From Chaetoderma sp. LZ-2023a (taxonomy: Eukaryota > Mollusca > Caudofoveata > Chaetodermatida > Chaetodermatidae), in the NCBI GenBank assembly GCA_034401795.1, contig CM067373.1, positions 90,354,996 to 90,418,995 on the forward strand: 64,000 nt of DNA, read 5' to 3'. Positions 1 through 31,937 of the stretch are shown in pieces; positions within the stretch are counted from its first letter, which is position 1; each line of letters begins with the position of its first letter. The notes under the pieces are model-generated. The model had not been told where the DNA came from. It saw nothing but the letters and a program-made list of their open reading frames with translations, and made no database searches. The position numbers and the translations under genes were made by a program.

Positions 1-300
1 GAGTTGATGCTTACCACCCTGATATGATCACGGCCTCTCCGCCCACAGTCGCTTGGTCTTTCAGTGTTAAATGTTGTAATTTGTCAGCCAATAATTTGGA
101 ATAGGAAGTGACAGCCCCACGCATGCGTGAGTTTGGGCGGTGCATCCGCCGGACTCGGTTGCCTAACCTGCCCAGTTGGGGCGGTTTTCTTTAAATTCTG
201 AGTCTTATTGAAGTTAGGTCGATATTTTGGAAATATCATAGAGTATCAGGGTGGTAAGTATCAACTCTCTCATGAAAAAAGAAATCCTTGATTTTGTTTA
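1..300 (+). mobile_element. DIRS retrotransposon, right end (truncated by window edge)
   Basis: The segment is a diverged copy of 11004-11302, the right end of the complete DIRS element in this window: it starts inside the internal complementary region (GAGTTGATGCTTACC) and runs through the right inverted repeat to a terminus ending GTTTA at 300. The rest of the copy lies upstream of the window. No coding sequence is present. Confidence 0.85.
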
Positions 301-7414: not shown

Positions 7415-7451
7415 CAGGGCGCTTACCGCGGTAAGGACCACGCCGGTGTGT

Positions 7452-15530: not shown

Positions 15531-15574
15531 TTTTCGTGGTTGGTGTATGCTTCTAGATGGAGATGGGAGCTGCT

Positions 15575-15643
15575 GTTCTCCCGGACATGGAAGGCCATAG
15601 CGAATATAAAACTCCCGTGCAGACCCCACATGTCCGGGAGAAC
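15575..15643. repeat. 15-bp inverted repeat inside Polinton left end
   Basis: GTTCTCCCGGACATG (15575-15589) and its exact complement (15629-15643) with a 39-bp loop. No match to it in the right end was seen. Confidence 0.85.
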
Positions 15644-15671
15644 CTCCTCAGGATATTGGCCAGTGGCTGGC

Positions 15672-15692
15672 CTCTCTCTCTCTCGTTCTCTC

Positions 15693-15745
<53 letters not shown>
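15672..15745. repeat. (CT)n microsatellite
   Basis: CT dinucleotide run with two CGTT interruptions near its left side, inside the left end of the Polinton. Confidence 0.95.
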
Positions 15746-15748
<3 letters not shown>

Positions 15749-15894
15749 CTGACTGGTATCCAGAAGTGACATCAAGATCTAGAGTGAGTCGAGCCTGATA
15801 GCGCAGCAACGCAGCAACGTGTGAACACATAACCTATCAGCTATATTTATTAATGCATACATGGCTGAGATAGTTAATGCGTTGTATTATACAC

Positions 15895-16045
15895 TTTTAA
15901 AATCACAGGTTCAAATCTCGTTATGTGTTATTAGCAAATGGTAAACTTTAAAACCACAGGTTCAAATATCGTTATGTGTTATTAGCAAATGGTAAACTTT
16001 AAAACCACAGGTTCAAATATCGTTATGTGTTATTAGCAAATGGGA
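15895..16045. repeat. 51-bp tandem repeat, about 2.9 copies
   Basis: Unit includes CACAGGTTCAAATATCGTTA and GTTATTAGCAAATGG; copies begin 51 bp apart (GGTTCAAAT at about 15908, 15959, 16010). Lies in the non-coding left end of the Polinton; 16046-16528 between it and the first gene shows nothing else I can support. Confidence 0.85.
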
Positions 16046-16528
16046 AACATGTCTACAATTACTCCTTACCCATTACCCGAGAAGCGTGACACCACATCAA
16101 GACCAACTCGCACAGTCACATAAAACCCATGATTGCAGACCACAGACCCTCGACTGAGCCAAAGTCAAGAATAGTAGTTTTTTTAGCCCATCATGCTTTT
16201 CCGTAACACCCAATTAGACATAGCATCCATAATGGTATACCGGTGGTCATAAGTTACGTGTGAACGCACAACCATACATTACTCAAACACTCAACTACGT
16301 GTAGACGCTCATCTACAAACAATATTACACACAATTGGCTGGCCTGAAGAGCTATGGTCATGCATGCATGATGTAGGCTGTGCAGCGCGATGAGAAAAAG
16401 TACCCAGGCCATTGCGTGATATGGGCAACTATGCAGATCAAAATCTTGAGAAATGGAGAAGCTCAGGGATCCCAACATTCCGCTCATCAGTTCTACTAAC
16501 ATGATGATATCCGATGATTGTGATAGCG

Positions 16529-16786
16529 ATGGACAACCTCTTCAAGTATATGAATTATTTAGAGACGGTTTGCAGTTTTGGTGTGGATGCTGCTATCGAG
16601 TTGGAACAAGAGTGGGAACAAGAAATGCAGTGATCCCTCGCCAACCAACCTCTCAAGGTGCGCACTACTCCCACGTATCACATCAGACACGACGGACCAC
16701 CCACAGGTTTTTCCAGGTACTGATCTCCTTGTGATCAACCACACATAATAGGGTCTGAATGCCCATTTAGAGACAAGCATCCACAG
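16529..16786 (+). pseudogene. Polinton small gene of unknown function (two stops)
   Basis: From the ATG at 16529 a single frame runs 86 codons to a stop at 16784-16786, with TGA at 16631 and 16721. The N-terminus reads MDNLFKYMNYLETV and is followed by an acidic helix-like EQEWEQEMQ. It ends 11 bp before the polymerase start. I do not recognise it; the shared frame across both stops is the main support. No TTTAA-N8-TATAG signal precedes it. Confidence 0.35.
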
Positions 16787-16797
16787 TGATATACACC

Positions 16798-19700
16798 ATG
16801 ATTACTGTTGCACAGCTTCGCGATGGTGCAAAGCAATTCAGTCTTAGAGGCTACTCTAAGGTCAAGAAAGCCGACCTGCTCCAGATGATCGGACAGGCCC
16901 GTGCCGAGGCATTGTAGAAGCGACTCTCCCAGGCAATGAAGACGGAAAGGTTTCCAGCGCTTACCAAAGATGATCCTTTGAATCCCCACAAGAAAGCGCA
17001 GCAGATCCGTGAGCTTTGTCAGTTGGACGAGGAGGTGACAGCTAGCTTGCGAGCCAAGACTGTAGTGAGGCGGATGGTGGACCATCCACTGGAGCGCTTA
17101 CCTCCCCTATGCAGGATCACTAAGCGAGTGATGAGGGGCCCGAGGTCTGAACCCTTAGCCCGGAGCATGAGGCGAGAAGGCGACCACATTCTCGACCAGC
17201 GTCTCGGCGAAAGGGAGACAGAGGATAGAGGACGCTGGTCAGTACGCTGGACATTCTTCAGAGGTCTAGAAGGAGACCTCACAGGCTAGATCATGCAAAA
17301 GATCCAGCAGACTGTCCAGAATGACTTCTACCTCCACTACACCCATAGCTATCGCATCCGTCACATCGAAGACGGTAGGGTGATGCTCTTCCACAAGAAT
17401 ACTCCAGGGAGCCCGTGGCTGAACATGATAGGAGCAGCTCAGGACTGGGTGGCAGCAAGAGAGCAAGCCCGCCTCGACACAGACAATATCGATCGATCCA
17501 ACACCAAGTGGGCTTTCGTTCAATCAATCAACGTTGATGTCAGAGCTCTCATCGACCACCAACCTCTGCTTGGGACAGGCCCCCTCCCAGACTGGCTACG
17601 ACAGAAGAAGAGTATGACTGCCCTCGACGCCTACAGGGACAACATCTGTCGCTGGAGATGTCTAGCAGTCCACCGAGGAGCGAGAGCTGATAGAAGTACA
17701 GCTCCTGCATGAGAGCTTGCCACACAGTTTTACGGCAAGACAGTGACAGTAACTGATGTCCGCAAGACCTTGCTGGATCAGCTGGACAAGGTAGAATTCT
17801 TCGCCAAGATCAGGATTCGCGTGTATGAACCAACCGGGAGAGGACACCTGGCACTTGATCAGGCAAGTGGCTCACTACAGTGACACCATGACCATCGGCG
17901 TGTGGGACCACCACACCTACATCAAGAACATCTCCAAGCTGGCACATGCACTAGTCTGCAGTCACTGCCAGCAGAGGTTTACAAAGGCATGCAATCTTCA
18001 ACGCCATGCTGATCACTGTACAGGCAGCAAAACAACAATCGTGTGTCCTGGTGAGAAGATTGAGGCGCCACAGTCTGTGTATGAGAAATACTTCTATCCG
18101 CCCCAACCATCCAGTTCAGTGGCTACTCATTGGATCAAGTATGAGTTGAGACACAGAGGGTACACATACTCCATGTAGAGTATGGGCACGGTGGCGAGCG
18201 TTGGATTGAGGGTGCTCCCGTAGATGGTTATGACCCGACCACCAACACCGTTTACCAGTTCCATGGCTGTTACTGGCACGGGTGGCCACAACACCAGCGA
18301 GGTGAGGATGCCAAACAAAGATACTGCAAGACAGTCCTGAGAGAGGAGAAGGTGAGAGCATCTGGATGCACGCTTGTGGTACAGTGGGAGTGCTGTATAA
18401 AATGCTGTTTAAGCATCACTAAACGAGTGTGGACTGTCCCATACCCACACTTCATAGTTTATGACTTCGAAGCACTCCTAGATGGTAGCAAGACTCATCC
18501 TATGGAGACTCTCACGATCGAGAGTCCTCACATACCTATCTCTGTGTCAGTTGGCTGCTCCCTAGATGGTGCCACGAGTGAGCCCACTTACCTCTGCAAT
18601 CCTGACCCCAAAGAACTGATCAGAGAGTTCATGCTGGTGATCCAACTGCGAGCATATCTAATCTGGACAAGGGTTAGGGCACCGTACATACCGACAGACC
18701 TGGACAAGCTCCCAAAGCGACAGCAGCGACTGATCAACGGGTGGTATGACCAAGTGCCTGTACTGGGGTTCAACTCTGTGTAGTATGACCTGAACCTCAT
18801 CAAGAAGTACTTTGTCGATGAGCTGACTGACAGTACAGGTACAATGAAAGTCACCAAGAAGGCTAATCAGATCATGTTCCTCATAACACCTGAACTCCGG
18901 TTTCTTGATGTGCTGAACTACCTCGGCCCAGGAGTCTCGTACGAGGTATGGGTCAAAGCTTACGGGTGTACACAGCAGAAGAGCTGGTTCCCATATGAAT
19001 GGTTTGACACACATGAGAAGCTCAACTATCCAGGGCTTCCTGACTACTCAGTATTGACATCTAAGTTCAGGGGTGGCTACCTCTTGACACGATCAGAGTT
19101 GGAACAGTGTAACCAGACATTCAGCGAGCATGGAATGCGGCCATTCGCTGACTGGCTTTGATACTACAACAACCTGGACGTCAGTCCATTCATCGAAGCC
19201 CTAGAGCAGATGCGGGAGTTCTACACAGAACGAGAAATAGACATCCTCAAAGACGCGGTGTCTCTCCCAGGTGTGTCACTGCAGTACCTCCTATGTGGAA
19301 CCACTCAGCACATGCCGGATGTTAGCCTCTATTCACCAGGCAAGGAAGCCTATGAGATGCTGAAGGGTGCTGTTGTTGGTGGTCCCAGCATCGTGTTCAC
19401 CAGATACCACAAGGCTGGTGTGACTCGAATCCGCCAGAGTGAGCGTGTCTGCCAACATCTACTCGGCTACGATGCAAATACTCTGTACCTGTCAATGATG
19501 GCCAAAGAGATGCCATGTGGTAAGGAGACAGTGCACCATTGGTCCGGTGCTAGTGGTGCTTTAAGAAAGATCTTCTAGCAGACAGCTGGTTTGGGTTTGC
19601 TGAGGTGGATATAGAGGTCCCCAAGGCTCTGTAGGCAAAGTTTGAGGAAATGCCTCCTCTCTTCTATAACCGCGAGATCCCGGTAGAGGCAATCTCTTCT

Positions 19701-20689
19701 GAGATGCTGGCATATCTAGGGTGAACAGGGAGGAAGCATCCCACCACCCAGAAGCTGGTTGGTGCCCTCTCTGGCAAGAAGCAGCTGCTGTGCGCACAGC
19801 CACTCAAGTGGTTAATAACCCATGGCCTGGAGATCACTTCTGTATACCACACCATAGACTATGAGGCCAAGTGGCCATTCGAGTGGTTCGTGGAGAAGAT
19901 TACGGAGCCCCGCCGCTCACGAGATGTAGATAAGAGCAAAGCGCTCTTGGCAGATCTCTTCAAACTCCTCGGCAACAGTGGCTACAGGATGCTCATCGAG
20001 GCCCTAGAACGTCATAGCAACACCAGCTTCATGAAGGATGAATGCGTGGTAGACAAGGCCCTGCGTAGTGCATGGTTCGAAGATCTCGAGGAGATCGGTG
20101 AGTCATACGAGCTCCAGAGTCGCAAGCCGAGAATCACTATTCGAAGGCCCTTCCAGGTCGGAATAGCCGTTTATGAGCTCGCGAAGCTGCGAATTATGGA
20201 GTTCTACTACGACTTCCTCGATCGCTACATAGCTCGGGATAGCTTTGAGTACCTGCAGATGGACACTGACTCCACGTATATCGCTATAGCAGGCTCCAAC
20301 CTCGACGACATCATTCGCCCTGAGATACAAGCAAAGTACCAGGCTCATAAGCGTGGGACAAATGGTCTGGATGGACTCTGGGACTGTTCAAGCTCGAGTT
20401 CGAAGGCTCTCGTGGTATCGCTCTCTGCTCCAAATGCTACTATGTGGAGAGCACAGCTGCAGGTAAGTGCTCGGCTAAGGGAATGTCAAAGCGACAGAAT
20501 GAGGTCTCTTGGCAGAGGTTCTACAGCGCCATACATAGCGGGGTGGACAGAGCTAAAAACCAAGGACTACGCATGCGCAACCAGGGTATGGTGACGTATG
20601 AGCAGGAAAAACTTGGCCTCTCCGCTTACTATGATAAGCGCCATGTGCTGCCAGATGGTGTCCATACCGAGCCCGCAGGGACTAGCTGA
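16798..20689 (+). pseudogene. protein-primed family B DNA polymerase with N-terminal SAP domain (decayed)
   Basis: Replicative polymerase of the element. About the first 35 residues form a SAP DNA-binding motif (TVAQLRDGAK ... LRGYSKVKKADLLQM). A C2H2-type finger (CSHCQQRF ... LQRHADHC) lies near 17958. FHGCYWHG near 18259 matches an endonuclease-like segment seen in Polinton polymerases. Exonuclease I is YDFEALL (about 18460) and II is GFNS...YDLNLIK (about 18769). Polymerase motif A is GYDANTLYLS (about 19465), B is KLLGNSGYR (about 19970), C is MDTDSTY (about 20260). Breaks: TAG at 16915, 17287, 18781, 19632; TGA at 17710, 19159, 19722; frame changes near 17825-17870, 18172, 19560 and 20380. 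The full length (~1,295 codons) fits the family. No TTTAA-N8-TATAG signal precedes it. Confidence 0.92.
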
Positions 20690-20713
20690 AGCTCTTCTAT
20701 GACAAATGGTCAC

Positions 20714-21611
20714 CTAGGCACTCCATGCCAGGTAGTACAGTGTAGGCTGCCCCTCCGCCTCCACATACCTGTCAAGCGTGTGAACATCTATTGACCAGTT
20801 AGGATCTGTTGCACACTGTCGACTACTTTCCAGCTCACCAGGCTCATACAGGTACCGAACCAGTGCATCAGGTGGTAGGCACTCCTCTCCCTTGTTCGCT
20901 CCTCTAGAGCTGTGACTGGCAACAGCAGAGTATCTGATAGCCTCTACCCTTCTTCCCGATTAGCCTGGTAACCTCGGCATTGGATCTCTCCACCACAGCA
21001 GGGAGCCCTTTCACCCATACTCTAGAATGTTCACTCGGCGCAGCCATTTCCTGGGCGTATTGGTGTGGGAACAGTCTCTCTGCCAGTGTCCGATTCCACT
21101 GCTCAACGATAGCCTGGGCACGGTGATGTCCTACCTCGCCTCGCCTAACTACCACACTGTCTTTCCGCATGTGGGCTGCAGTCTCACCTCTGAACTCCTT
21201 ACCCTTATCCACCTGCAACAATTCTGGTCACTGGAGGGGATTTTCCGAAGTCTCGTAGACACCTTAGAATGCCTGGGCCACCTGGCCAGCTGACTTATCT
21301 GTGAGCAGTACTGCAGCCTTGTACCTGCTGGCGACATCGACGATGGTGAGGGTGTACTTGTAGGTCTTATGACCAACCGAGTCATGTGGAAGGAATAGAA
21401 CATCTGCCTGGTGAACTCTGTTCGGGACAGTTTCCTCGAAATGAGCATGCCTGATGTGCCGTGAACGAGGTCTGTATATCTGCCACATCGCCTGGCAGCT
21501 AAGCCACTGGCTAACTGTCTCCAATGTGAAGTTGTGGCCCTTGCGACGTGCAGCCTCGAGTAGTTGAGCGGGCTCAATGATATCCACCAGGCTGATAGTA
21601 GAGTTCTTCAA
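20714..21611 (-). pseudogene. rve-family (retroviral-type) integrase (decayed)
   Basis: Catalyses insertion of the element. The N-terminal helical part is followed by the catalytic core: first Asp in NRVHQADVLF (about 21404) with YTLTIVDVASRYKAA after it, second Asp in QVDKGKEF (about 21209), and Glu in AIVEQWNRTLAERLF (about 21104), 34 residues apart. The C-terminal block reads ALVRYLYEPGELESS ... DPNWSI and ends with a stop at 20714-20716. Frame changes lie near 21225-21265 and near 20945. The gene converges on the polymerase, 24 bp away. The first codon in the open frame is TTG at 21611, overlapping the end of the 81-residue gene upstream, so the true start is unclear. Confidence 0.88.
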
Positions 21612-21853
21612 GAAAGATGGTTGATAAACTCCCGGATTTCATCACTGATGTCCACTCCCGTCCTGTCATGCACAGCCTGGGTGAACTCTAAACAGATGAA
21701 TAGATGGCCGTCATTCATTCGACCATCACTGAAGACCTCCTCAAACACCTCCGTACACTGGTGTCTAATCTCTGCTGGATCCTCACTGAACGGTAGTTTA
21801 TCGATCAACCCTCGGAAGTTAGGTGTCTTGACCAGGTCATACAGAGACGTCAT
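21608..21853 (-). CDS. Polinton small protein, 81 aa, unknown
   Basis: Intact ATG frame beginning MTSLYDLVKTPNFRG, ending a few bases into the integrase frame. Acidic, soluble composition, no recognised motif. Preceded by TTTAAGCC...TATAAGG directly before the ATG (21855-21872), which supports the start. Co-directional with the integrase, so the two may share a transcript. Confidence 0.55.
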   Translation of the reverse strand: MTSLYDLVKTPNFRGLIDKLPFSEDPAEIRHQCTEVFEEVFSDGRMNDGHLFICLEFTQAVHDRTGVDISDEIREFINHLS

Positions 21854-21854
21854 C

Positions 21855-21872
21855 CTTATAGCATGGCTTAAA
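21855..21872 (-). promoter_or_regulatory. TTTAA-N7-TATAAG promoter-like site
   Basis: Minus-strand TTTAAGCCATGCTATAAG, 1 bp from the ATG at 21853. One base shorter spacing than the consensus. Confidence 0.6.
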
Positions 21873-21875
21873 TGT

Positions 21876-22274
21876 TCAGCGGCCCAGATGGTCGCGAGTA
21901 ACGTACAGTAGCCAAGGGCCTGCGACTCCGAAGAACATACCTATTCCTGAGGCGATGGCTGGTATGGCTTCAGAAATCTTCTCCACACCATGGAGAGCAT
22001 TGTTGGCGATCTTGCGGACCGTCTCGTCAGCCTTCATTGTGAATGGAGCGATCAGAGCCCCAACTGCTGCCAGTGAACCAATAGAACCTTTTACGTAAGT
22101 GCGATAGATTCCTTTCGCTCTGTGTACTAGTTTGCGGGATTCAGGCTCTACATCATCATAGTCACCACCGACATCGTAGTCTGCATCATAATCCTCCTCA
22201 TCATAGTCCTCCTCATAATCCTCGGCATCTATATCCTCGACTGGATCTTCATAAGCCTCTGGTTCATACATCAC
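21876..22274 (-). CDS. Polinton membrane-type protein with acidic head, 132 aa
   Basis: Intact frame. Residues 1-47 are extremely acidic and Tyr-rich (DAEDYEEDYDEEDYDADYD); residues about 62-78 and 102-123 are hydrophobic (SIGSLAAVGALIAPF and AIASGIGMFFGVAGPWLLY), suggesting membrane segments or an amphipathic structural role. Family not recognised. Divergent from the 126-residue gene at 22340, with both promoter-like sites in the 65-bp gap. Confidence 0.65.
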   Translation of the reverse strand: MMYEPEAYEDPVEDIDAEDYEEDYDEEDYDADYDVGGDYDDVEPESRKLVHRAKGIYRTYVKGSIGSLAAVGALIAPFTMKADETVRKIANNALHGVEKISEAIPAIASGIGMFFGVAGPWLLYVTRDHLGR

Positions 22275-22300
22275 TCTGGTGATCCGTCGCTGGGGGACAG

Positions 22301-22318
22301 CTATATAGTAGCTTTAAA
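22301..22318 (-). promoter_or_regulatory. TTTAA-N8-TATAG promoter-like site
   Basis: Minus-strand TTTAAAGCTACTATATAG, 26 bp upstream of the ATG at 22274. Its TTTAA overlaps that of the plus-strand site. Confidence 0.65.
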
Positions 22319-22331
22319 CTGTAGTCTATAG
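22313..22331 (+). promoter_or_regulatory. TTTAA-N9-TATAG promoter-like site
   Basis: Plus-strand TTTAAACTGTAGTCTATAG, 8 bp before the ATG at 22340. Together with the minus-strand site it forms a divergent pair around one TTTAAA. Confidence 0.65.
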
Positions 22332-22339
22332 ACTACAGC

Positions 22340-22720
22340 ATGGCATCCGCAATCTTGAATGCGGGCGTGTTTGCCTTAGCGAACTGGGGATTCAGCTTCG
22401 CCGACAAGAAGGCGGCAGAGGTCGAGCGTATGCGTCATAACCAGGCGATGGAGAAGCTGTCTAAGGAGAAGTTTGAGTACAGCAAAGCACTCGAGCATAT
22501 GCACCAGAGGGAAGCACCCCGACGACAACTCCGAGCTCAGGCCAACCAGAGCATCAAAGAGGCAGATGAGAGTCTCGATGAGTACTACGAGGCTGTAAAA
22601 ATATCTGAGCCAACACTCGACTATGAAGCATCGACAGATCAGAAGACACCAGAGCTTATAGTAGTGGTGGCAGCTTCAGTGGTGACGACAGGAGTCGTGC
22701 TCTATGCACGCTCAAGCTGA
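22340..22720 (+). CDS. Polinton coiled-coil protein with C-terminal membrane segment, 126 aa
   Basis: Intact frame. A short hydrophobic N-terminus (MASAILNAGVFALANWG) is followed by a long charged, heptad-like region (about residues 24-90, ADKKAAEVERMRHNQAMEKL) and a single C-terminal hydrophobic helix (LIVVVAASVVTTGVVLYA, about 105-123). Layout suggests a membrane-anchored or virion-associated protein; family not recognised. Its end overlaps by 19 bp the convergent gene at 22702-23725. Confidence 0.65.
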   Translation: MASAILNAGVFALANWGFSFADKKAAEVERMRHNQAMEKLSKEKFEYSKALEHMHQREAPRRQLRAQANQSIKEADESLDEYYEAVKISEPTLDYEASTDQKTPELIVVVAASVVTTGVVLYARSS

Positions 22721-23725
22721 ATACCTGATGTGTTCGACACGCATACCTTAGCATAGCCAAAGTAAAGTACCGTCACACCTAATGAGCGAGTCCTAGCTAT
22801 GAGGTTTCCGATGTTGAAGCTGAGCCGGTTGCCATGATTAGGTGGGATGTCCCTGCCCCCGAGGTGGTGACAGCCCTCGAGTCGGCCTCTGTCTGTAGAG
22901 ATGGCAGTCAGCCAGCTCGCATACCTCACCAAGAACATTGGTCCCAGCAACCACAAGCTTGAAGTCGTCTAGCTTATCCACCTGCTGGATGACTCCTCCC
23001 TTCTTAACCCTGACCGCAACAGCAACACAGTCCGATACACCATGATGCAATGTCAGCTCTACCCGTTAGTTAGCTGTGGCTTGGACCTGCTGGTATTCTC
23101 GCTCCACATGCATGATCCGCTGTTTGGGACCCGTTTGCTTCAGCTTCTGGCCATTCTCTTCATGCCAGATATGAAGTGTTGGAGCATTCATCGTCACATC
23201 TGCGAGCTGCTCAGTGTACACCCGGAGGAACAACCTATCCTGCATGGCAGGCGGATTCATGTGTGTGTTCTCGAGGAGGGTTAAGAGTGGAACTGCCACG
23301 GACATCTTGACACATACCTGTAGTTCAAATTCTGTGAACCCCTCATTGCACCCCACAGCATAGTACCCCTTTCCCTTCGCATAGAAGGTTGGTCCACGAG
23401 CCAGCAGACCTAGGACTCAGTACTCATCGTTCACATAGGTGGTGTCCACGGTGCTGTTGCTCTGCATGATCTCCCACCTGTTCAGAACATGCGGGAGCTC
23501 TACCATCTGTTCTGTTGTGCTGTGAAGCTTGAACTCGAATGTCATGTTCTTGATCTCGTGGATCTGTGCCGAGATTGCAAAATCGATGTACTTCCCAGTA
23601 GCAGACAATGGGTTCTCATCATGTATACTGGGTCGAATGACCATCGGGCAGTCCTTCCGAGGATCAGTGCGGTACGATGTCGCGGGTTCAATGGCCCCAT
23701 CTGGATGTTGCACATACTGTAGCAT
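22702..23725 (-). pseudogene. Polinton mid-sized protein, ~340 codons, capsid candidate (broken)
   Basis: The ATG at 23725 follows CTTAAAC. One frame runs to about 22880, broken by TGA at 23417-23419 and TAA at 23066-23068, then a frame change near 22870-22900 leads to a stop at 22702. Translated parts alternate short hydrophobic and polar stretches (DFAISAQIHEIKNMTFEF, KMSVAVPLLTLLEN, FKLVVAGTNVLGE), compatible with a beta-rich fold. Polintons encode double and single jelly-roll capsid proteins, so this is one of three candidates; I see no diagnostic motif. Confidence 0.55.
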
Positions 23726-23726
23726 G

Positions 23727-23746
23727 TTTAAGGTCTGGGTATATAG
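23727..23746 (+). promoter_or_regulatory. TTTAA-N8-TATATAG promoter-like site
   Basis: Plus-strand TTTAAGGTCTGGGTATATAG, 18 bp before the ATG at 23765. It shares its central TATATA with the opposing site. Confidence 0.7.
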
Positions 23747-23756
23747 AGGTTTTAAA
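23739..23756 (-). promoter_or_regulatory. TTTAA-N8-TATAC promoter-like site
   Basis: Minus-strand TTTAAAACCTCTATATAC, 13 bp upstream of the ATG at 23725. Confidence 0.7.
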
Positions 23757-23764
23757 GGGCTGCC

Positions 23765-24628
23765 ATGTTTGGTAAAGTTCTCCAGCAGATTGTCTATAGG
23801 CAGCAGGACAGCAGCCAGTAGGCACGACAGTCATGGCCACGACGTACACTGTCCCACTATGACAGGGTCCAAGGACAGCTTCGTGACATCAACATTATCC
23901 ACGAGCGAGCCAAGGTTACAGCTCTCCATCTGATGCGGAGATACTGGCCGCCATAGAGGAAGGAGCGCCAGCTCATAGTACAAAAGATCTCCTGACTCGG
24001 ATACTCTACCGGAAGTTTGACAGCACCCATGGCAGGGCACTCAACCTACCTGTGGCCCAAACCAACAGTCCTGTTATTCTAGCTCTCCAAAGGGCGAGGG
24101 TTGAACCCAAAGATCTACTAATGGTCTGGAGTCGGGCTGACATATTTAGCCTCCATAGCCAGAAAGAGCGAGATATGCTGGATAGCCTCCAGTCTGGAGC
24201 AAATAACTACCTCAGGGAGGAGGTCAGTGCCGCTGTAGCAGAGAACCATGACACAGGTCATGCAGAAGGTACTCAGGAGGGGCTCACTGTTGGCCGCAAG
24301 GAGGCTGTTGAGCACATCTTCAATGAAAGAGGGTGAAGGGGATTGGCCAGTAATCTGCCAGCATTTCTGAAATTCCCAGATCACTACCAGGACTACCTCA
24401 TCAAATCCGCTTGCATGGACAAAGTGGATCTTCCGTGAGAAGTTCCAGAAGAAGAGCGTCCTAGAATCTGACCCTCAGTGGATAGAGTTTCAGAAACAGG
24501 CTTCTGATGAAACTGACGAAGTTCCTCAAGCTTCTCACAAAGTTCCTCAAGCTTCTGACGAAGGTCCTCAAACATCTGACGAAGTAGTGGAGACCTCGGA
24601 CGAAGTTCCTCAGCCTTCTGATGAATGA
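23765..24628 (+). pseudogene. Polinton protein with DEVPQAS tail repeats (broken)
   Basis: Starts at the ATG following a promoter-like site (MFGKVLQQIVYRQQD). Breaks: TAG at 23819, frame change near 23928, TGA at 24334, frame change near 24421; stop at 24626-24628. The middle part is helical and charged (VEPKDLLMVWSRADIF, EEVSAAVAENHDTGH). The last ~35 residues are five 7-residue repeats. Total about 288 codons. Function not recognised. It meets the convergent ATPase gene at a run of A. Confidence 0.6.
24515..24619 (+). repeat. five 21-bp coding repeats
   Basis: Units begin at 24515, 24536, 24557, 24578 and 24599; consensus GACGAAGTTCCTCAAGCTTCT, encoding DEVPQAS. Unit 4 is the most diverged. 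The repeated Leu-Arg-Asn-Phe pattern in the minus-strand frame is just the mirror of this. Confidence 0.9.
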
Positions 24629-24629
24629 A

Positions 24630-25232
24630 AAAAAAAGTTGCGGCAGCTGCGACAGTCTATGACACATAGAGCAGGCTAGTTTCCTGGCTGGATTCAGCTT
24701 GTAGGTGAAGGTCTGCACCTTTTCCAGAGATGGCTTGAAGTGTGACAGCTGACCTGTCTCCTTGTTGCTGAAGATGAAGCAGTACAGATCAACTGCCCTC
24801 TGTACACCTGCGATAAAGTCCCCTTTGGTCTCCTTGATGGTTAGGCTGTCGTATATGGTCTCGAGCAGGGCAGGTCCACACTTGGAGCTGAAGTATAGCA
24901 ACCGGGCATTGTGGCGGATGTCCGGTGAGATCTCGTGGGTGTACTTCTGAAAGAGGATGAAGACAGTTATCTTTGTGTGCCGGATGCGCATGGTTCAGCA
25001 GCTTCTCCATCAGTGCTTGCAGGTTCTGCATCTTGGTGATTGGGCCATTGTACCATTGATCATTACTGTCAACCGCCTCAGCGGAGAAGTCAGACACCAG
25101 AAGGATGTATTGAGAGTGTAGATGTTCGGCCAGGAGAGCCCGCAGCAAGATGTTTTTCCTGTGTCCTGATGGGGCAATGATCAGCACCACCTGGCCAGCA
25201 TCGGCCGGCCTACTATCGAATGGTACAGACAT
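24630..25232 (-). pseudogene. A32/FtsK-HerA-type packaging ATPase (broken)
   Basis: Probable genome-packaging ATPase. Starts MSVPFDSRPADAGQVVLIIA; the P-loop region reads APSGHRKN, where the expected GK[ST] is degraded. A strand like ILLVSDFSAEA follows. A frame change near 24990 leads to VFILFQKYTHEISPDIRHNA, matching the family's sensor segment with Gln and an Arg-x-x-Asn, then a Cys-x2-Cys near the end. About 200 codons, normal for Polinton ATPases. The stop region falls in a poly-A run near 24628-24636. Confidence 0.7.
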
Positions 25233-25271
25233 GCGTGCGGAGGATGGTTAGCACTTGGTCGGCGGTAGCCT

Positions 25272-25549
25272 AGTCTATATTTGGGAGACTAAAGGGCAGT
25301 ACTTCCTGCACCAGCTCTTTCGCCTGCAGAGCGGGGAATCCTGCACCTCCGGCGGATATGATCATGTCGATAGTCACTTACAGGACTGGCGGTATGATCA
25401 GCGAACGAAAAGAAGAAGAAGAAGGATGCGATGGAGGCATCAAGCATGAAATCCCAGCAGCAGCTGAGACGATAGCGTAGTGGGCGTGTGTCAGCACCCA
25501 CAGTGTCTAGTACATTCAGTATCTGTATGATACATGGACGGGAGGCCAT
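25272..25549 (-). pseudogene. Polinton small protein, unknown (frameshifted)
   Basis: ATG at 25549 placed 2 bp after a TTTAA-N8-GATAG site. Begins MASRPCIIQILNVLDTVGA; a CTT run gives a string of Phe, after which a neighbouring frame reads more protein-like (ISAGGAGFPALQAKELVQEV) to a stop near 25270. No family recognised. Confidence 0.4.
25275..25293 (-). promoter_or_regulatory. TTTAG-N9-TATAG, variant promoter-like site
   Basis: Minus-strand TTTAGTCTCCCAAATATAG, 42 bp upstream of the ATPase ATG at 25232. Differs from the consensus at the fifth base, so weaker. Confidence 0.35.
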
Positions 25550-25551
25550 GA

Positions 25552-25569
25552 CTATCCTGCGGTCTTAAA
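25552..25569 (-). promoter_or_regulatory. TTTAA-N8-GATAG promoter-like site
   Basis: Minus-strand TTTAAGACCGCAGGATAG, 2 bp before the ATG at 25549. It overlaps the last codons of the upstream gene. Confidence 0.6.
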
Positions 25570-26056
25570 CGGCAAACCAAAGAACCCTGACTTCTTCACC
25601 TCTGGGAGCTGGAGGCTGGTGGTAGCACCTTTTTTGCCATCGACAGTGATATTGCTCAGGCCGCTGGTGCCTACCTTGAGATTCTCTCCATCCTGTTGGA
25701 ATGAGCTCCGCAATTTCAGGAGATCCTTAACCAGATCCTGTGTAAAGGACACAGCCATAACCTTGATGGCTCCAGCCTCATCGACTCCGAGCATACCTCG
25801 CATCGTCTCCCTCTCCTTGATGCCCATCCCCTTGTATACAGTCTTGGCCTTGTTAATGGCCGATTGTACTACCGTATCAGTGTTCCCGATGAGATCTCGG
25901 ACTGGGATGGTACCTCGGATCTCCCGTGGGTCTCCCTTCTCATCGAAGTCTAGGAAGGAGATAGGGGCAACAGTGTCCTCTGAACCGAGGCGTGCCTCAC
26001 CCAAGTGAGCAATTGTAAAGTTCTTTGCTTTCTAGGTCTGTGAGTGACAGAGTCAT
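25552..26056 (-). pseudogene. Polinton soluble protein, ~168 codons, unknown
   Basis: The long open frame starts only at a TTG (26004), but a promoter-like site at 26061-26080 and the ATG at 26056 (MTLSLTDLESKELYNC) put the true start upstream, with one frame change near 26000. The body is intact: ISFLDFDEKGDPREIRG, NTDTVVQSAINKAKTVYKG, LGVDEAGAIKVMAVSF, ending KKSGFFGLPFKTAG. Mixed alpha/beta composition without membrane segments. Family not recognised. Confidence 0.6.
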
Positions 26057-26060
26057 AGTG

Positions 26061-26080
26061 CTATATACAGACGGCTTAAA
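26061..26080 (-). promoter_or_regulatory. TTTAA-N8-TATATAG promoter-like site
   Basis: Minus-strand TTTAAGCCGTCTGTATATAG, 4 bp before the ATG at 26056. Confidence 0.7.
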
Positions 26081-26084
26081 CCTA

Positions 26085-26309
26085 CTAGTCATACCCCCAG
26101 TGAAATAGTTGGGCATAGCAGAACCACGCAGTCGGCCAAGGGAATAGGTAGCAGTGCTCAGGGTACTGGCCCTCTCTGCAGGGTCATGCCTTGTGGGCGG
26201 TCCACCATTCCCTGGCATTGGCAATCCTCAGTCCGCATGCTCGACTATGGGCTACACACTGCGCTCCAGCACACCATGCCTCATATGCTGTAGTGGTCTC
26301 GTGATCCAT
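26085..26309 (-). pseudogene. Polinton small gene, 75 codons, one internal TGA
   Basis: The ATG at 26309 follows a promoter-like site by 6 bp (MDHETTTAYEAWCAGAQC). One frame runs to TAG at 26085-26087 with a single TGA near 26186. An alternative overlapping frame (25997-26224, MPMPGNGGPPTRHD) lacks such a signal and I regard it as a shadow or frameshifted part. Unknown function. Confidence 0.4.
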
Positions 26310-26731
26310 CTCTCACTATTCAGAGGTTTTAAAACGTAGGCGACGATGATCTCAGCCATTGCGCTCATTGCTAGCCCTAGAACCGCGGCCTCCATTAGTG
26401 TAACACGTTCACCCATGATCTTGGTGGCGGCAGTGTAGGAGGCACCACTGATGGTGATCTTTGGGATGGGGTGAGTTATTCCGAGACAGTGCTCAGCCAC
26501 CCCACTCACCACTGTAGCGAGGACAGCCGCAGTGGCGGCAGGAAGAACCTCATTTCCACCTGTCATCTTCACCATGGCCACATTCGCTGCCACGTTACTG
26601 GCGACATGGACTGCCAGAGGTTTTGCTTTGGTCAGTAACTTCTGTGTCTTGGTTCGCAGCAGGTTCTCCATCTTCTGAAGACTCGCCTGGCTCTCGGGCA
26701 GTTGCTTCATGATCTGTACCATTGACGTCAT
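26252..26731 (-). CDS. Polinton hydrophobic protein, 159 aa
   Basis: Intact frame. N-terminal helical segment (MTSMVQIMKQLPESQASLQK), then Ala/Val-rich stretches (AVHVASNVAANVAMV, AATAAVLATVVSGVA, EAAVLGLAMSAMAEIIVAY) that could be membrane-active. Similar in style to the 132-residue and 28753-29327 proteins. Family not recognised. Promoter-like site 14 bp upstream. Confidence 0.6.
   Translation of the reverse strand: MTSMVQIMKQLPESQASLQKMENLLRTKTQKLLTKAKPLAVHVASNVAANVAMVKMTGGNEVLPAATAAVLATVVSGVAEHCLGITHPIPKITISGASYTAATKIMGERVTLMEAAVLGLAMSAMAEIIVAYVLKPLNSERWITRPLQHMRHGVLERSV
26316..26333 (-). promoter_or_regulatory. TTTAA-N8-AATAG promoter-like site
   Basis: Minus-strand TTTAAAACCTCTGAATAG, 6 bp before the ATG at 26309. 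The first 13 bases are nearly the same as those at 23739-23756. Confidence 0.6.
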
Positions 26732-26849
26732 TGTTTAAGCACTGAGTATACAATGCGGTTAAACATCTGCATCCCCTGTCGAGAGAGTTAATAAGATCTT
26801 CCCAGTCTGCATCTGCCAGGTGTCTGGGTTGGTACTCAGGAATATTCAT
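26595..26849 (-). CDS. Polinton small protein start, unknown
   Basis: ATG at 26849, 6 bp after a promoter-like site; MNIPEYQPRHLADADWEDL then a Cys pair. The frame overlaps the next gene by 137 bp, and only its first ~40 residues look convincing, so a frameshift or early stop may have been lost. Confidence 0.35.
   Translation of the reverse strand: MNIPEYQPRHLADADWEDLINSLDRGCRCLTALYTQCLNNDVNGTDHEATAREPGESSEDGEPAANQDTEVTDQSKTSGSPCRQ
26746..26763 (-). promoter_or_regulatory. TTTAA-N8-TATAC promoter-like site
   Basis: Minus-strand TTTAACCGCATTGTATAC. The same GTATAC is also 8 bp after a plus-strand TTTAA (26734), making a symmetrical box. Confidence 0.65.
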
Positions 26850-26855
26850 CTCTCT

Positions 26856-26873
26856 CTATTGAGACATCTTAAA
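26856..26873 (-). promoter_or_regulatory. TTTAA-N8-AATAG promoter-like site
   Basis: Minus-strand TTTAAGATGTCTCAATAG, 6 bp before the ATG at 26849. Confidence 0.6.
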
Positions 26874-26874
26874 C

Positions 26875-27369
26875 ATGTCCGGGCTCACGCTATGCGAGAA
26901 GTACTATGATGTCTTCCGGAGGGACATAAAGGACTACAAGAAGAAGACACCAGATGAGCTCGCTCAGCTGTCCGGTGCTGAGCTGACAGAGGAGCTGACA
27001 GCTGTGAATCTCTATCTAGGATTTGGTAAGGGACAGATCTGCTTCCTCGACTAACTTATCATGGGCAGGATTATTGTTGAGCATCTGTGAGCTAAAGGTT
27101 TCTACAAGGATCGGGAGTATCTGTCGGATGTGTTCCAGCAGTTGCAGATCGCCATGGCCTCACCTGACTCAGAGGTGAACAAGGCTCTGCGATACTACAA
27201 GCTGGAAAAAGGATGCACTGCGGAACCATCCAACCCTTGGATGTGCATGTCGGCTGCGTGTATAGGGGCTGTAGGGCATGCCAAGCTAGTTCAGTGTCTC
27301 ACCGTGGTCGCCACTGCTACTGTAGAGAGTCAGGATAGTCTTATAGCTGATTTGCTAGCGGCGGAGTAG
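26875..27369 (+). pseudogene. Polinton protein, 165 codons, two in-frame stops
   Basis: Starts at the ATG after CTTAAAC (MSGLTLCEKYYDVFRRD) and stays in one frame to TAG at 27367-27369, interrupted by TAA at about 27053 and TGA at about 27092. Helical and charged; later CTAEPSNPWMCMSAACIGAV contains a Cys cluster. Family not recognised. Its end overlaps the convergent gene by 15 bp. No TTTAA-N8-TATAG site on its own strand. Confidence 0.55.
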
Positions 27370-28671
27370 GCTGATCCTGAGCACCATGATAGCTAGGCCT
27401 GACACCACTCGTAGAGCTGCCACAGGAAGCGGTGTCATGTCGACTGTCTGCAGTGTCAGGTTCAGAACACCTTTATGTGGAGCTGCCATGGGGAGCGTTG
27501 TGTCGACTGGCTGCAGTGTCAGGGTTGGAACGACTGTATGTGCTGCCATGCCCATACTACGCGTAGGTGCGTTGATATCAGTGTTGAAGCCGAAGTGGAC
27601 ACTGGGGGAACTCCCCTCGACTATCATGTTATAGCCCCTGACTTGGAGGTCCTCGATGTTCACGATCATATTGCTCGGAATCAACCATAGGTGTGGTGAA
27701 ATAGCAAAGTCAAGTTTGCGACTGGCCTTCTGCAACCCCTGCTGGAACTTAGCAATAAGACTACTGGGGTCTGCCACGATGATCATATCCTCAACGAGAC
27801 TGATGAACATGGCCTGGACCTCTGCTCCGCTGACACCATCTATGGAATGACACAGCATCGTCTGTGCTGTAAGGAGGCAGTAGCACAGTGCTTCCAGGGA
27901 CTGGTTGATCCGAAGGATATCTGCTGATGTGAGGCCTGAGGTGGTGTGTGGGACAAAGTACTTCCACACATCTGGATAGTCCTGCCACAAGCCAGTGATG
28001 TGCATATTTTGCACCATCGCTCCAGGGTCGGACTCTGGATCGAATGTCGCTGTCTTCCGACGACCTACTCGTCGGGGTGTTCGATAGGGGAATCCTGAGT
28101 AGTACCGTCTCGGGTCACCGTACATAACCCCTGGACCGCTGTTGTCGCCGCCATGCCACCGATAGTCTGGGTGAGCGCTGAACTCTCTCTGTAGTCTGCT
28201 GGCCGCTGAGACGCTATGACTGTTGAGCTGTGGGTCAAAGTCGTTTGTATCAGGGAGGCTTGCACCCAGCTCATGGCGGATTCGTCGCACCGTGTAGTAC
28301 ACATGGAATCTGAGACAGCTGGCGATGAGCACAGCTTCAGGAGTACCAGAATAGGAGCGAAGCAAGGTGGAACTTACTCCACATCCTGCCGTGGCACACC
28401 ACATGGCAAGGTTCAGCTGCTGATTCCAGTATGAGAGGCTTGGAGCAGCCATCCAAGTATGAGGTTGCTTCGCATCCTTGATGGTGATAGGGTGGTTGGT
28501 CAGCGGTCATGGGTTGACGGAGAAGCTGTTTCGGGACCGTCCATCCACTGTGATGGAGAATGGTGTTAGCTCTGGTATATCAGATAACAGACCTCTCAGG
28601 CCAGTCAAGGGTGTACCCAGGAGGGGCGGTTGGCTCTGGATGACTGTCGTGAAGTTCAGTGGTAAGGCCAT
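27355..28671 (-). pseudogene. Polinton large protein, 439 codons, capsid candidate (one stop)
   Basis: The ATG at 28671 lies directly after a promoter-like site. The frame is continuous to 27355 except for TGA at 28507-28509. N-terminus MALPLNFTTVIQSQPPLLG, later SYWNQQLNLAMWCATAGCG, RFHVYYTVRRIRHELGA, YFVPHTTSGLTSADILRINQ and LWLIPSNMIVNIEDLQVRG. The C-terminal 50 residues contain a duplicated segment (TLTLQPVDTTLPMAAP / NLTLQTVDMTPLPVAA). Largest nearly intact structural-looking protein. I cannot name its family; major capsid protein is one possibility. Confidence 0.6.
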
Positions 28672-28690
28672 CTATACTGGTGTTCTTAAA
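28672..28690 (-). promoter_or_regulatory. TTTAA-N9-TATAG promoter-like site
   Basis: Minus-strand TTTAAGAACACCAGTATAG, abutting the ATG at 28671. Confidence 0.7.
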
Positions 28691-28752
28691 GCTACTGTAC
28701 AGGCAGCACACTATTTGTAGTCGTCTCGACTCCAGAGACGAGCAAGGTGACC

Positions 28753-29327
28753 TCACCGTAACATCTCGTTTTTTAGCTCCTCCATATCAACCCGTCCGCT
28801 GAAGCCTTTGAGGTATTGCTGTCGCACTTTAGGTGTCTCCGTGTGGTACAGGGCATGCAGCTTCAATATATGGTGGTACTCTTCATCGGTGACCTGTCCA
28901 TCCTCGAGAGCTTTGCTGACAGACTCGTCGAAAGTCCATAGCATACTCTGTGCCAGTGTCACATACTTAGCATGCTTCTCCTGCATCCTTGTAATCTGCC
29001 GCTGCCCCACCACCAAGCCTGTGGCCAAGACAGTTGCAGCTAGTGTCACGCCACCCAGCGGGATGGCACCCACCCTGTAGCGAGTGTGGCCACAGCTGCC
29101 ACACCAGCACTGGCTCCAATCACACCCACAGCAGTGGTTGTATGTGCGAGGACGTTGTAGGCTGTCTTATATAAACCTGCGTGTTCTGCTGTAGTTTTCT
29201 GCCTCATGGACGAGATTCCGCTTGATGGCATCTATCTGCGGGAGTCGCCAGCCATGGATGGTACCGCCCTTATCAGCAGTCAGGGAGGGGTATAGTTCTG
29301 GTTCCTTCCGCCACTCTGATTTTGCAT
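28753..29327 (-). pseudogene. Polinton protein with glycine/alanine hydrophobic core, ~190 codons (broken)
   Basis: Start at the ATG 29327 is set by the promoter-like site 1 bp upstream. That frame is broken by TGA (about 29280) and TAG (about 29233) and a frame change near 29060. Two hydrophobic stretches (VGVIGASAGVAAVATLATG, LGGVTLAATVLATGLVV) are followed by a charged helical tail (DGQVTDEEYHHILKLHALY). Reminiscent of membrane-active virion proteins in general layout only; family not recognised. Confidence 0.5.
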
Positions 29328-29328
29328 A

Positions 29329-29346
29329 GTATACCTGGAGATTAAA
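29329..29346 (-). promoter_or_regulatory. TTTAA-N8-TATAC promoter-like site
   Basis: Minus-strand TTTAATCTCCAGGTATAC, 1 bp before the ATG at 29327; overlaps the end of the upstream gene. Confidence 0.65.
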
Positions 29347-29881
29347 CCTGCATCGCCTGCAGAATCTGCTCATGAGTCATTTTGGAGAGCCTGGCAAACC
29401 GTGCCAGCTTTTTAGTGTCGAGACAGACGTGTCTTAGAAAGTGGTCATCCAGCACTATGTCGGGTGCCAGTAGCTTTCTGAGATGCCGCTGGATGGCTTT
29501 CTTGTTCTTACACTTCTGCACCATCTCCTCTTCCCACTGTATGACATCTGGCTTATCCTCATTTGTGAAGACACCTGGCTCATCATCGTATGTGAAGACA
29601 TCTGGCTCATCGTCATCTGTCAAGATTCCTGTGTCCCGCTTACTCTCCTCCAGGAGGGCCTGCCAGTATCGCGACCCTTCACTGTTCCTTCGCCTCCTTG
29701 CCTTGCTGGCAGCCTGTTGATACCAGCTCTCCCGCTGTAGTCGCTCTCCTTGTTGACAGATCTGTTGCTGTGCGAGCATCTGTTCGTTTAAGGCCTTTGT
29801 CTGTGCAGGGGTCATGATGGGGCAACCCTCTATCAGGTTCATCATCTCGGCAAAGGTCAGATATTCCAGGTATGATATCAT
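29342..29881 (-). CDS. Polinton protein with acidic repeats, 179 aa
   Basis: Intact frame from ATG 29881. Gln/Arg-rich first half (NEQMLAQQQICQQGERLQ), then three acidic near-repeats (DDEPDVF, DDEPGVF, EDKPDV at about residues 95-120), then a basic helical end (KKAIQRHLRKLLAPDIV). The ATG overlaps the stop of the gene upstream by 4 bp, so translation may be coupled; no promoter-like site of its own. Family not recognised. Confidence 0.6.
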   Translation of the reverse strand: MISYLEYLTFAEMMNLIEGCPIMTPAQTKALNEQMLAQQQICQQGERLQRESWYQQAASKARRRRNSEGSRYWQALLEESKRDTGILTDDDEPDVFTYDDEPGVFTNEDKPDVIQWEEEMVQKCKNKKAIQRHLRKLLAPDIVLDDHFLRHVCLDTKKLARFARLSKMTHEQILQAMQV

Positions 29882-30208
29882 GTTGTCGTCAGGTCAATGA
29901 GTAATAAGAGTGTAAACTCTAAAGGGGCGTCCGATATCCCATCTTTGCTGGCATATATGTTAATGGAGGGGCTGTCAAACAGGTGATTTACAGGTGTGAA
30001 CAGGCTAGGACTGATAGCTTTCCATAGGTTGCTGTCGGCACCTGGGAGACACTCTATCACATCCCGGCCGACTTCTACCAGTGAGCTGCTGTGTGCACTG
30101 CCCGGAGAAGAGGACCCATTCTACATGGTACTGTACCACCTGTCTCCCCTCTAGAGTGGGTGAGATTACATTCTCACCACCGGAGAGCAGCAGTCGGACA
30201 ATCGTCAT
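29878..30208 (-). pseudogene. Polinton small protein, ~110 codons (frameshifted)
   Basis: The ATG at 30208 lies 2 bp after a promoter-like site (MTIVRLLLSGGENVI). A frame change near 30050-30100 is needed to reach the second half (MIECLPGADSNLWKAI ... LLLLIDLTTT) ending at 29878. Unknown function. Confidence 0.5.
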
Positions 30209-30210
30209 GG

Positions 30211-30228
30211 TTATATCTCCTGTTTAAA
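30211..30228 (-). promoter_or_regulatory. TTTAA-N8-TATAA promoter-like site
   Basis: Minus-strand TTTAAACAGGAGATATAA, 2 bp before the ATG at 30208. Shares GTTTAAAC with the opposite-strand site. Confidence 0.65.
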
Positions 30229-30240
30229 CCCCTCCTATAG
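30223..30240 (+). promoter_or_regulatory. TTTAA-N8-TATAG promoter-like site
   Basis: Plus-strand TTTAAACCCCTCCTATAG, 6 bp before the ATG at 30247. Confidence 0.7.
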
Positions 30241-30246
30241 CATGCT

Positions 30247-31224
30247 ATGGAACCCATATTTGCTCACTCGACTGGTCTTGCTGACCTGGCAGATGTGTAT
30301 GCAGTTGATGCTGCCAAGGTAGAAGAGACTGATGGCAAGTCATTTGCCCTACAGTACGAAGCAAACTCAAAGACATTCTCCCTCCACCCCATTGGTGGTG
30401 ATGGGGTGGAGCTGCTCACAGACCTCAAGGATGTGTCGAAGGAGCGCCTGGGTCGCAACATAGATGGCCACAAGATCGTGTTTCGGTACAATTTCCCGAA
30501 GACGAAGTACATCCTCGAGCCGTTGATTGAGGTCTCAGATACAGAGGTGGCAGACATCAACACCCTAAATGACGACCTCAGCTTTCATCTGGTCAAACCC
30601 AATTCGAGCAATGCCCCGCCAATGACACATGATGGTCTGCTATTGACCCTGGCAAAAAACCTGCAGTTCATGTTTGAGAAGAATGAAGTGTGGTACCGCG
30701 CTGGACCTGGTGGTGACTGGCAAACATGCTTGCCACTATATAGGCCTCCCGCAGTCATTGACATAGAGGTTACTCCCCTCTCCACTGTTGTGAAAAGGGA
30801 TGGGAAGGTTCGAAAGCTCTACAATCGGGGATCATCCTTCCTCACCTACATAGGTGAAGGTGTCTCCCTGGCGAGGGTGGGTCAACGGATCGGAGTTACA
30901 GGTGGAAAGCTCCTGCTGTGTCGTCCAATCGATGGACCAGAAGGAGCTGTTAACCTTCAGGAGGGCATCCTATGGATAGATGGTGTGTCACATGTCTCCA
31001 AAGCCAAGGGTGCTGTTAAACTGCTTCAGCGAGTCGGACTCACTAGCCTGCAAACGACTCGTATAGTCCTAGAGCTACGTTTCTTAGCTTGCGGCAGAAT
31101 GAAGCAGCTAGCCCCTGCCCCTGAGGGGATGAAGATCACTATCGATCCGGATGGAACAGCTCGATCTGGCACAGATATTTCTCGAGGGGTTCACTCTGTT
31201 CAGTTTAACTCTTCATATATAGCC
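30247..31224 (+). CDS. Polinton protein, ~320 aa, capsid candidate
   Basis: Longest intact frame of the element outside the broken genes. Begins MEPIFAHSTGLADLADVYA; includes DGHKIVFRYNFPKTKYILE, NEVWYRAGPGGDWQTC, VIDIEVTPLSTVVKRDGK and TTRIVLELRFLACGRMKQ, with a strand-rich pattern. The frame continues to 31434, but a promoter-like site at 31204-31222 and an ATG at 31225 suggest that two genes have been fused by loss of the original stop (a neighbouring frame has TAA inside that site). Family not recognised; one of three capsid candidates. Confidence 0.6.
31204..31222 (+). promoter_or_regulatory. TTTAA-N9-TATAG promoter-like site
   Basis: Plus-strand TTTAACTCTTCATATATAG, 2 bp before the ATG at 31225, inside the apparent long frame. 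Confidence 0.55.
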
Positions 31225-31600
31225 ATGATTCCCATCATACTGCCCGTGCTGGCGTCTACAGCAGTGGCACAGGGCACTGAGACTGCCATGATATTGGATG
31301 CCAAGTGGGCCCACTTCTGGGATGACCCCAGTACAATCCTTGGGTCAACCCCTTGCGGAGAAACATTTGCGACCACTTTCACCCACGTGAAGAGATCGAG
31401 TCTGTCTGCCACTTCTATGGTGTGGAGAGGGTAGGACATGGTTGTCTGTTGGAGACACCTGCTCATGTCTGCCATGGTGCAAATGCTAAGCATTTTAGCA
31501 TCCTACCAGGTGAGCATTGTCAAGGTAGATGGAAGACACTATGGGTGGTCCCATCATGCCGATGCGACGCTGGCAGAGACTACGTGTTTGTCTGAGCCTA
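31225..31600 (+). pseudogene. Polinton small protein with hydrophobic N-terminus (frameshifted)
   Basis: MIPIILPVLASTAVAQGTET looks like a signal or membrane segment. DAKWAHFWDDPSTILG follows, then a frame change near 31353 leads to VCHFYGVERVGHGCLLETPA, and a second near 31480. A Cys/His-containing middle part is visible, but I cannot assign a protease or other fold. The end lies in the degraded right arm of the element. Confidence 0.45.
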
Positions 31601-31698
31601 CACAGAGTGCAATGCCCATCCCGTATGGGTGGGGGCCCCGCCGGGGGTGGGGGGGGCCTAATGCATTTTAAACGGTGTTTAAACTTTGTTTACACTGG

Positions 31699-31730
31699 AG
31701 AGAGGGTGGTGGGAGCCGCGGATCGCAGCG
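31699..31730 (+). repeat. internal TIR-like segment in Polinton right arm
   Basis: GAGAGGGTGGTGGGAGCC and GGATCGC resemble GAGAGGGTGGTGGGGGCC and AGATCGC of the right terminal repeat at 31858-31885, in the same orientation. Confidence 0.6.
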
Positions 31731-31829
31731 GGGAAAAGGCCAGCATTTAGACTGAGTTTAGATACCACCTTTTTCTGTGAGCCGTCCCATTTAGAGACAT
31801 AGGGCATTGTATGTATTTGTGTGGCCGAT

Positions 31830-31937
31830 GTCTCAAATTCCTATGCCCCAGGGATTGAGAGGGTGGTGGGGGCCACAGATCGCCGAATGGCTGCCAGTTG
31901 AGGGAGGTGGTATCATTTTAACTCCGGTCCTACTACT
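31830..31937 (+). repeat. Polinton right terminal inverted repeat
   Basis: Complement of 15414-15530; ends CCGGTCCTACTACT at 31937, followed by CATTA (31938-31942). Confidence 0.92.

Follow-up and report, generated by a model that had tools for sequence, protein, structure and literature searches.

A two-box motif in a Polinton of Chaetoderma

The 64,000-nt stretch of DNA analysed here (the window; C15:90354996-90418995 in the 2.44-Gb, 2753-contig genome of Chaetoderma sp. LZ-2023a) holds a Polinton element in which most genes are preceded by a two-box motif. The element is bounded by 92-nt terminal inverted repeat (TIR) arms that are 95% complementary, and AGTAGT, the (AGT)2 end of Polinton/Maverick elements, was found at both of its ends. 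TCATTA lies to the left of AGTAGT and CATTAG to the right of ACTACT; their common part is CATTA, with no clean 6-bp duplication. The GC content of the element is ~50-52%, compared with 33-47% in most flanking 2-kb bins, and its genes are partly broken in this copy.

The strict motif was defined as TTTAA-N7-10-[TAG]ATA[GCA], with TTTAA as box 1 and the TATAG-like sequence as box 2. Its matches in the right half of the element are given below, together with the element and two of its genes. Family B is one of two families of copies in the same genome, and L numbers denote individual places.

15414-31937, no strand: Polinton element; TIR arms 15414-15505 and 31846-31937; AGTAGT/ACTACT ends
16453-20690, plus strand: broken putative DNA polymerase B gene; no strict motif ahead; start and end uncertain
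20714-21853, minus strand: broken integrase gene; start ATG at 21853
21856-21872, minus strand: integrase motif; strict motif kept in family B copies L046, L048 and L050, not in L037
22301-22318, minus strand: motif of the gene with ATG at 22271; TTTAAA common with the opposite site
22313-22331, plus strand: motif of gene 22340
23739-23756, minus strand: motif of gene 23725; TATATA common with the opposite site
23727-23746, plus strand: motif of gene 23765
25552-25569, minus strand: motif of gene 25549; overlaps the stop codon of the preceding frame; strict motif missing in the 2 other copies seen
26061-26080, minus strand: motif of gene 26056
26316-26333, minus strand: motif of gene 26309; within the end of the preceding reading frame
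26746-26763, minus strand: motif of gene 26731; GTATAC common with the 26734 plus-strand match
26734-26751, plus strand: 16th strict match, doubtful; ~120 nt ahead of gene 26875
26856-26873, minus strand: motif of gene 26849
28672-28690, minus strand: motif of gene 28671; abuts the ATG directly
29329-29346, minus strand: motif of gene 29327; stop codon of the preceding frame in TTTAA
30211-30228, minus strand: motif of gene 30208; TTTAAA common with the opposite site
30223-30240, plus strand: motif of gene 30247
31204-31222, plus strand: motif of gene 31225

The motif is in excess and points at start codons

A first-pass annotation of this DNA had listed 15 such sites, and all of them are present at the places and on the strands it gave, each just before an ATG on the same strand. 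The TTTAAA or TATATA that it described as common to opposing sites in three divergent gaps was also seen again. We counted 17 strict matches in the element, 16 of them in its right half (21641-31937, 10.3 kb, both strands) and one in its left half (15414-21640). Comparison with shuffled sequence, which the annotation had proposed, revealed a clear excess: 1000 dinucleotide shuffles of the right half gave a mean of 0.134 matches and a maximum of 2, against the 16 observed, and the reversed pattern did not occur there at all. An ATG followed within 30 nt downstream for 16/16 of the right-half matches, as against 0.505 of random placements. A motif-blind enumeration of pairs (5-mer, 4-nt spacer bin, 4-mer) placed TTTAA-N6-9-TATA at the top with 13 occurrences, compared with 6-10 for the top-scoring pair of each of 10 shuffled sequences; the top 6-mers of this search included GTTTAA, TTTAAA and TATATA. 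The motif is real. Across the whole window there were 33 strict matches versus 6.7 expected, 16 of the 33 outside the element; genome-wide, forward matches to the single motif (287,787) are fewer than those to the reversed control (733,208), so that no excess is seen.

The start codons beside the motif were further examined by comparing copies of families A and B. In the 21 gene-copy comparisons (of 84 site-copy tries) that passed a cut of 40/60 identical bases, mismatches after the ATG numbered 76, 72 and 159 at the three codon positions, out of 399 each. This concentration at the third position indicates that the ATG beside the motif marks the start of the reading frame. From the start of box 1 to the ATG the distance is 19-47 nt, less than 30 nt in 11/15 genes and 31-47 nt in the other 4/15, and box 2 ends 0-29 nt ahead of the ATG. 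No TATAW was found 16-45 nt upstream of box 1 at any of the 15 sites (chance 0.034 per site).

Genes with and without the motif

The first-pass annotation was wrong in placing the integrase among the genes that lack the motif, as the open reading frame (ORF) at 21853 is the integrase N-terminus. In copy L048, a single ORF (7515-8324) starts at the ATG aligned with window position 21853 and contains a weak match to the integrase domain rve at residues 145-242. The motif at 21856-21872 thus belongs to the integrase. Motif and ATG are adjacent in L046 and L050; in L048 an insertion of ~2 kb (5473-7515) lies between them, at a TATATAA stretch. For the gene placed at 22274 the motif held and the start did not, because that position is a GTG and the conserved ATG is at 22271.

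Only the putative polymerase, among the genes checked, clearly lacks the motif. As annotated, no strict site lies ahead of this gene in the window, and the match at 15901 points the opposite way; likewise, none lies ahead of a polymerase-like frame, identified by eye only, at place L054. Repeats of ~51 bp carrying TTTAAAACCACAGGTTCAAAT occupy window positions 15888-16050, ahead of this motif-less polymerase gene, and are possibly a separate control region.

Three further starts deserve comment. The 29881 gene, correctly described as lacking the motif, overlaps the frame before it by an ATGA at its start; its transcript is therefore perhaps common with the upstream 30208 gene, and the two may be transcribed together. 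The 26875 gene may use the plus-strand match at 26734, or none; box 1 of that match is not clearly kept in the single family B copy seen. In the window copy, ORF 30247-31434 contains the 31225 start in frame. This start plausibly belongs to a separate gene, since the 30247 frame ends near residue 304-313 in several other copies. The motifs at 25552-25569 and 29329-29346 also serve as coding sequence: a long frame ahead of the gene has its stop codon inside the TATAG-type box or TTTAA.

Copies in the genome fall into two families

The divergent pattern CTATA-N6-9-TTTAAA-N6-9-TATAG occurs at 1950 places genome-wide versus 75 for its reverse. Of these, 50 were listed, all from one contig, and most have the spacers of the window's family; the count therefore reflects copy number and is not independent evidence. 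Reading 19 of the listed places assigned 11 to family A by protein matches and seven to family B. The remaining one, L034 (C1:3139090), was rejected as a Polinton; it has 33% GC and no blastn match to the element. The first-pass annotation implied that related copies would carry the motif as well, and for most sites this holds: the strict motif lies near its expected place in 208/249 site-copies, with families A and B taken together and L036 counted beside L048.

Place L054 (C1:5913000-5916500), near L048, contains a polymerase-like frame recognized by eye only, with no Pfam or PHROGs match and, by tblastx, no significant similarity to the window polymerase. Sequences matching this L054 frame occur near three places with B-type spacers, at distances of 4.0-7.9 kb. 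The two families may be mosaics that have capsid and integrase genes in common and different polymerases.

Boxes are kept while spacers change

In the right half of the element, families A and B are ~75% identical in DNA (9776/13087 letters outside the motifs and their near flanks; 74.7%). Because family B was found with the divergent pattern, its sites at 22274, 22340, 30208 and 30247 are kept by construction, and they were left out of the main A-B comparison, as was L036, which lies inside L048; L053-L057 do not enter the conservation counts. At the seven aligned sites that remained, 111/116 box letters were identical between the families, compared with 73/103 spacer letters. Shifted placements of the motif gave a mean box identity of 0.750 and a maximum of 0.919, none of the 300 reaching the observed box value; the difference between boxes and spacers was reached by 1/300. 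The strict motif is intact at 10/14 aligned non-ascertained B sites, a hand count that covers aligned, undeleted sites.

The site of gene 22340 illustrates the contrast: family A has TTTAAACTGTAGTCTATAG, whereas B copies have TTTAAACTCGCTATATATAG or TTTAAATCACCTGTATAG. In 5-nt bins of family B, ascertained sites included, identity is 0.99 at TTTAA and 0.62-0.76 in the surrounding bins (-15 to +19). To judge from these alignments, the motif is conserved, its boxes fixed between two families while its spacers change. In family A (42 loci), 1660/1726 box letters and 1628/1800 spacer letters agree, a difference reached by 9/300 shifts; these copies are too alike, so their conservation says little.

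Proteins of the element and neighbouring sequence

Recognition of the integrase was weak: rve matched at E 2.7e-4 for the window copy and E 0.016 for L048, and neither match attains the curated Pfam score. The polymerase has a sub-threshold PF03175 match only (E 0.074), and by eye its region contains DTDS and NSGY, which we take to be DNA polymerase B motifs. No capsid, packaging ATPase or protease family scored above threshold among the ORFs scanned. The beta-rich product of the gene at 22.8-23.7 kb was considered as a candidate capsid protein; its model reached a pLDDT of 35 from the single sequence and 43 with 16 rows, with weak matches. Neither viral contigs nor, at E 0.001, 5.8 billion proteins yielded relatives outside this genome.

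No RNA polymerase family was found among the window ORFs scanned, most of which had no family match at all, and no protein of the element was recognized above threshold as a transcription factor. A zf-C2H2 match in the polymerase region is sub-threshold (E 0.012). The product of 28753-29166, in the region of gene 29327, has a sub-threshold match to a CII-like phage transcriptional activator (E 0.021), with equally weak others beside it; the match is probably due to chance, yet offers a lead for the missing factor.

Elsewhere in the window, positions 7452-10384 hold a retroelement with two overlapping frames and matches to reverse transcriptase and, more weakly, RNase H, Dam-like and tyrosine-recombinase-like domains; it is presumably DIRS-like.

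Discussion

We consider it likely that most genes in this Polinton lineage, though not the polymerase gene, have the motif as their core promoter; to judge by conservation, its boxes probably switch on the expression of these genes. Our confidence comes from the non-ascertained comparison of families A and B and from the shuffles; the 1950 places genome-wide and the shared boxes of family B, where the layout is seen independently of ascertainment only at 23725/23765 in L046, are weaker evidence. The first-pass annotation had called the motif promoter-like and suggested a late-type class. The former is well supported, as the motif is strand-specific and next to real start codons, with palindromic boxes that are shared and boxes that are kept while spacers change. 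The latter fares less well: the integrase carries the motif too, no structural gene was recognized by family or fold, and the putative polymerase is the only gene that clearly goes without.

In the mechanism that we propose, TTTAA would be the upstream recognition element and the TATAG-like box ~8 nt further on the initiator, with transcription starting at or near it, which would give mRNAs with 5' leaders of about 0-30 nt. The palindromic form of a box would allow two divergent genes to use one box. A TATA box sets the RNA polymerase II (Pol II) start ~30 nt downstream of its first base. As the geometry observed here misfits a TATA box at that distance, we infer that the motif has a reader of its own. 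This is most likely host Pol II brought to the motif by a factor specific to the element, a step that would follow expression of the motif-less polymerase gene.

Several observations weigh against this proposal. The central A-B figure comes from seven sites in a few loci, the whole comparison covering seven B loci in one genome and two related families, and gapped alignment may favour matching boxes. Distant B bins are also high, 0.85 at -30..-26 and 0.88 at 25..29 (ascertained sites included), and the strict motif is missed in L037 at 21853, in L048 at 23725 and 23765, and in L052 at 29327. The weakest sites across copies are 25549 and 26056, where the expectation of a motif in related copies failed in whole or in part (0/2 and 1/2). 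Within family A the contrast is small, spacers being kept as well as or better than boxes at 22274, 26849 and 28671. Finally, leaders near 0 nt are unusual in eukaryotic translation. The reverse layout, with a start at TTTAA and leaders of up to 19-47 nt, may suit scanning ribosomes better.

Three other explanations were weighed. The boxes might be copies of a late promoter from a large DNA virus of the host, and the RNA polymerase of that virus would then transcribe the Polinton, an arrangement like that believed to link giant viruses and virophages, judging from the available text of PMC10945749. We regard this as unlikely, even though very short leaders would suit a viral polymerase and the window ORFs scanned, most of them matching no family, include no RNA polymerase. 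No helper is known, and viral contigs gave at least 120 stretches for the divergent pattern and at least 120 for its reverse. Among the stretches listed, the 15 densest in motif plus ATG all have 21-35% GC, where chance matches are common, and a few are denser than the window. Moreover, host Pol II is the polymerase usually assumed for nuclear Polintons. In our judgement an ordinary core promoter for host Pol II, whose TATA box would be TTTAA(A) or TATATAG, is still less likely. TTTAAA and TATATA can bind the TATA-binding protein, compact viral genomes often have simple TATA promoters, and a box 1 at 31-47 nt from the ATG, as in 4/15 genes, would fit. In most genes, however, box 1 begins less than 30 nt from the ATG and box 2 is nearer still, so a TATA-type start would fall inside the genes, whose conserved frame begins at that ATG; judged from ATG distances, the boxes do not have the Pol II arrangement of a TATA box ~30 nt upstream of the start and outside the gene. 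Conservation of both boxes at 7-10 nt spacing would also be needless for a lone TATA box.

Least probable, and in our view very improbable, is a signal acting in RNA or translation, such as a leader element or reinitiation after a preceding gene. Such a signal would account for motifs that stand just ahead of start codons and, at 25549 and 29327, contain the stop of the preceding frame. It would not account for a palindromic box read from both strands by divergent genes, in the window and at 23725/23765 in L046, which fits recognition of double-stranded DNA, nor for the motif ahead of genes that come first on their strand beyond a divergent gap.

The core promoter that we favour has partial parallels in known systems. 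Its geometry resembles that of viral promoters in which a recognition element is followed by an initiator near the ATG, as in the yeast elements described below, or that of late promoters with their motif at the transcription start, such as TCTA of mavirus. Nudiviruses and baculoviruses are large viruses with an RNA polymerase of their own, and in this they differ from a Polinton. Their late motifs, TTATAGTAT in nudivirus HzNV-1 and [ATG]TAAG in baculoviruses, have likewise been sought upstream of ORFs, and the TATAG core resembles box 2; the paired TTTAA box does not appear in the available text of that account (PMC6626001). The promoters of yeast virus-like elements, with an upstream conserved sequence (UCS) and an initiator, and those of poxviruses have two elements close to the start codon, the upstream one in the yeast elements usually 20-40 nt before the ATG and the transcription start a median of 11 nt after it (PMC6211774, in the part available). 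Unlike the motif described here, the yeast UCS is ATNTGA and is served by the elements' own RNA polymerase, whereas here TTTAA is paired with TATAG and no RNA polymerase was recognized. Mavirus and type 4 endogenous mavirus-like elements (EMALEs) have a short motif, TCTA, before the ORFs of a Polinton-related element, with AT-rich flanks, and it is shared with Cafeteria roenbergensis virus (CroV), according to the available text of PMC8547959. They have a single TCTA core, a protist host and a known helper; here there are two boxes at near-fixed spacing in an animal host for which no helper is known. Vertebrate Maverick/Polinton elements resemble the present one in their (AGT)2 // (ACT)2 ends and a size of ~17 kb, and the available text of PMC8097293 contains no promoter motif of the element. 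A search for MHC class I in the present genome, which lacked a working control, gave no match, perhaps because the host is no jawed vertebrate. The first-pass annotation knew of no such motif for Polintons, and we found none in the open-licence literature.

The motif bears on gene expression in animal Polintons and on the question whether these elements still form virus particles or need a helper. A promoter signature at gene starts predicts start sites, finds further copies and corrects gene starts; being conserved, it can be compared with the promoters of candidate helper viruses and used as bait for the factor that binds it. There is an outside chance that this lineage does not rely on ordinary host promoters and instead has a two-box viral promoter with a foreign or element-encoded reader, in which case it would live much as virophages or satellites do, with a large DNA virus of this animal as its partner.

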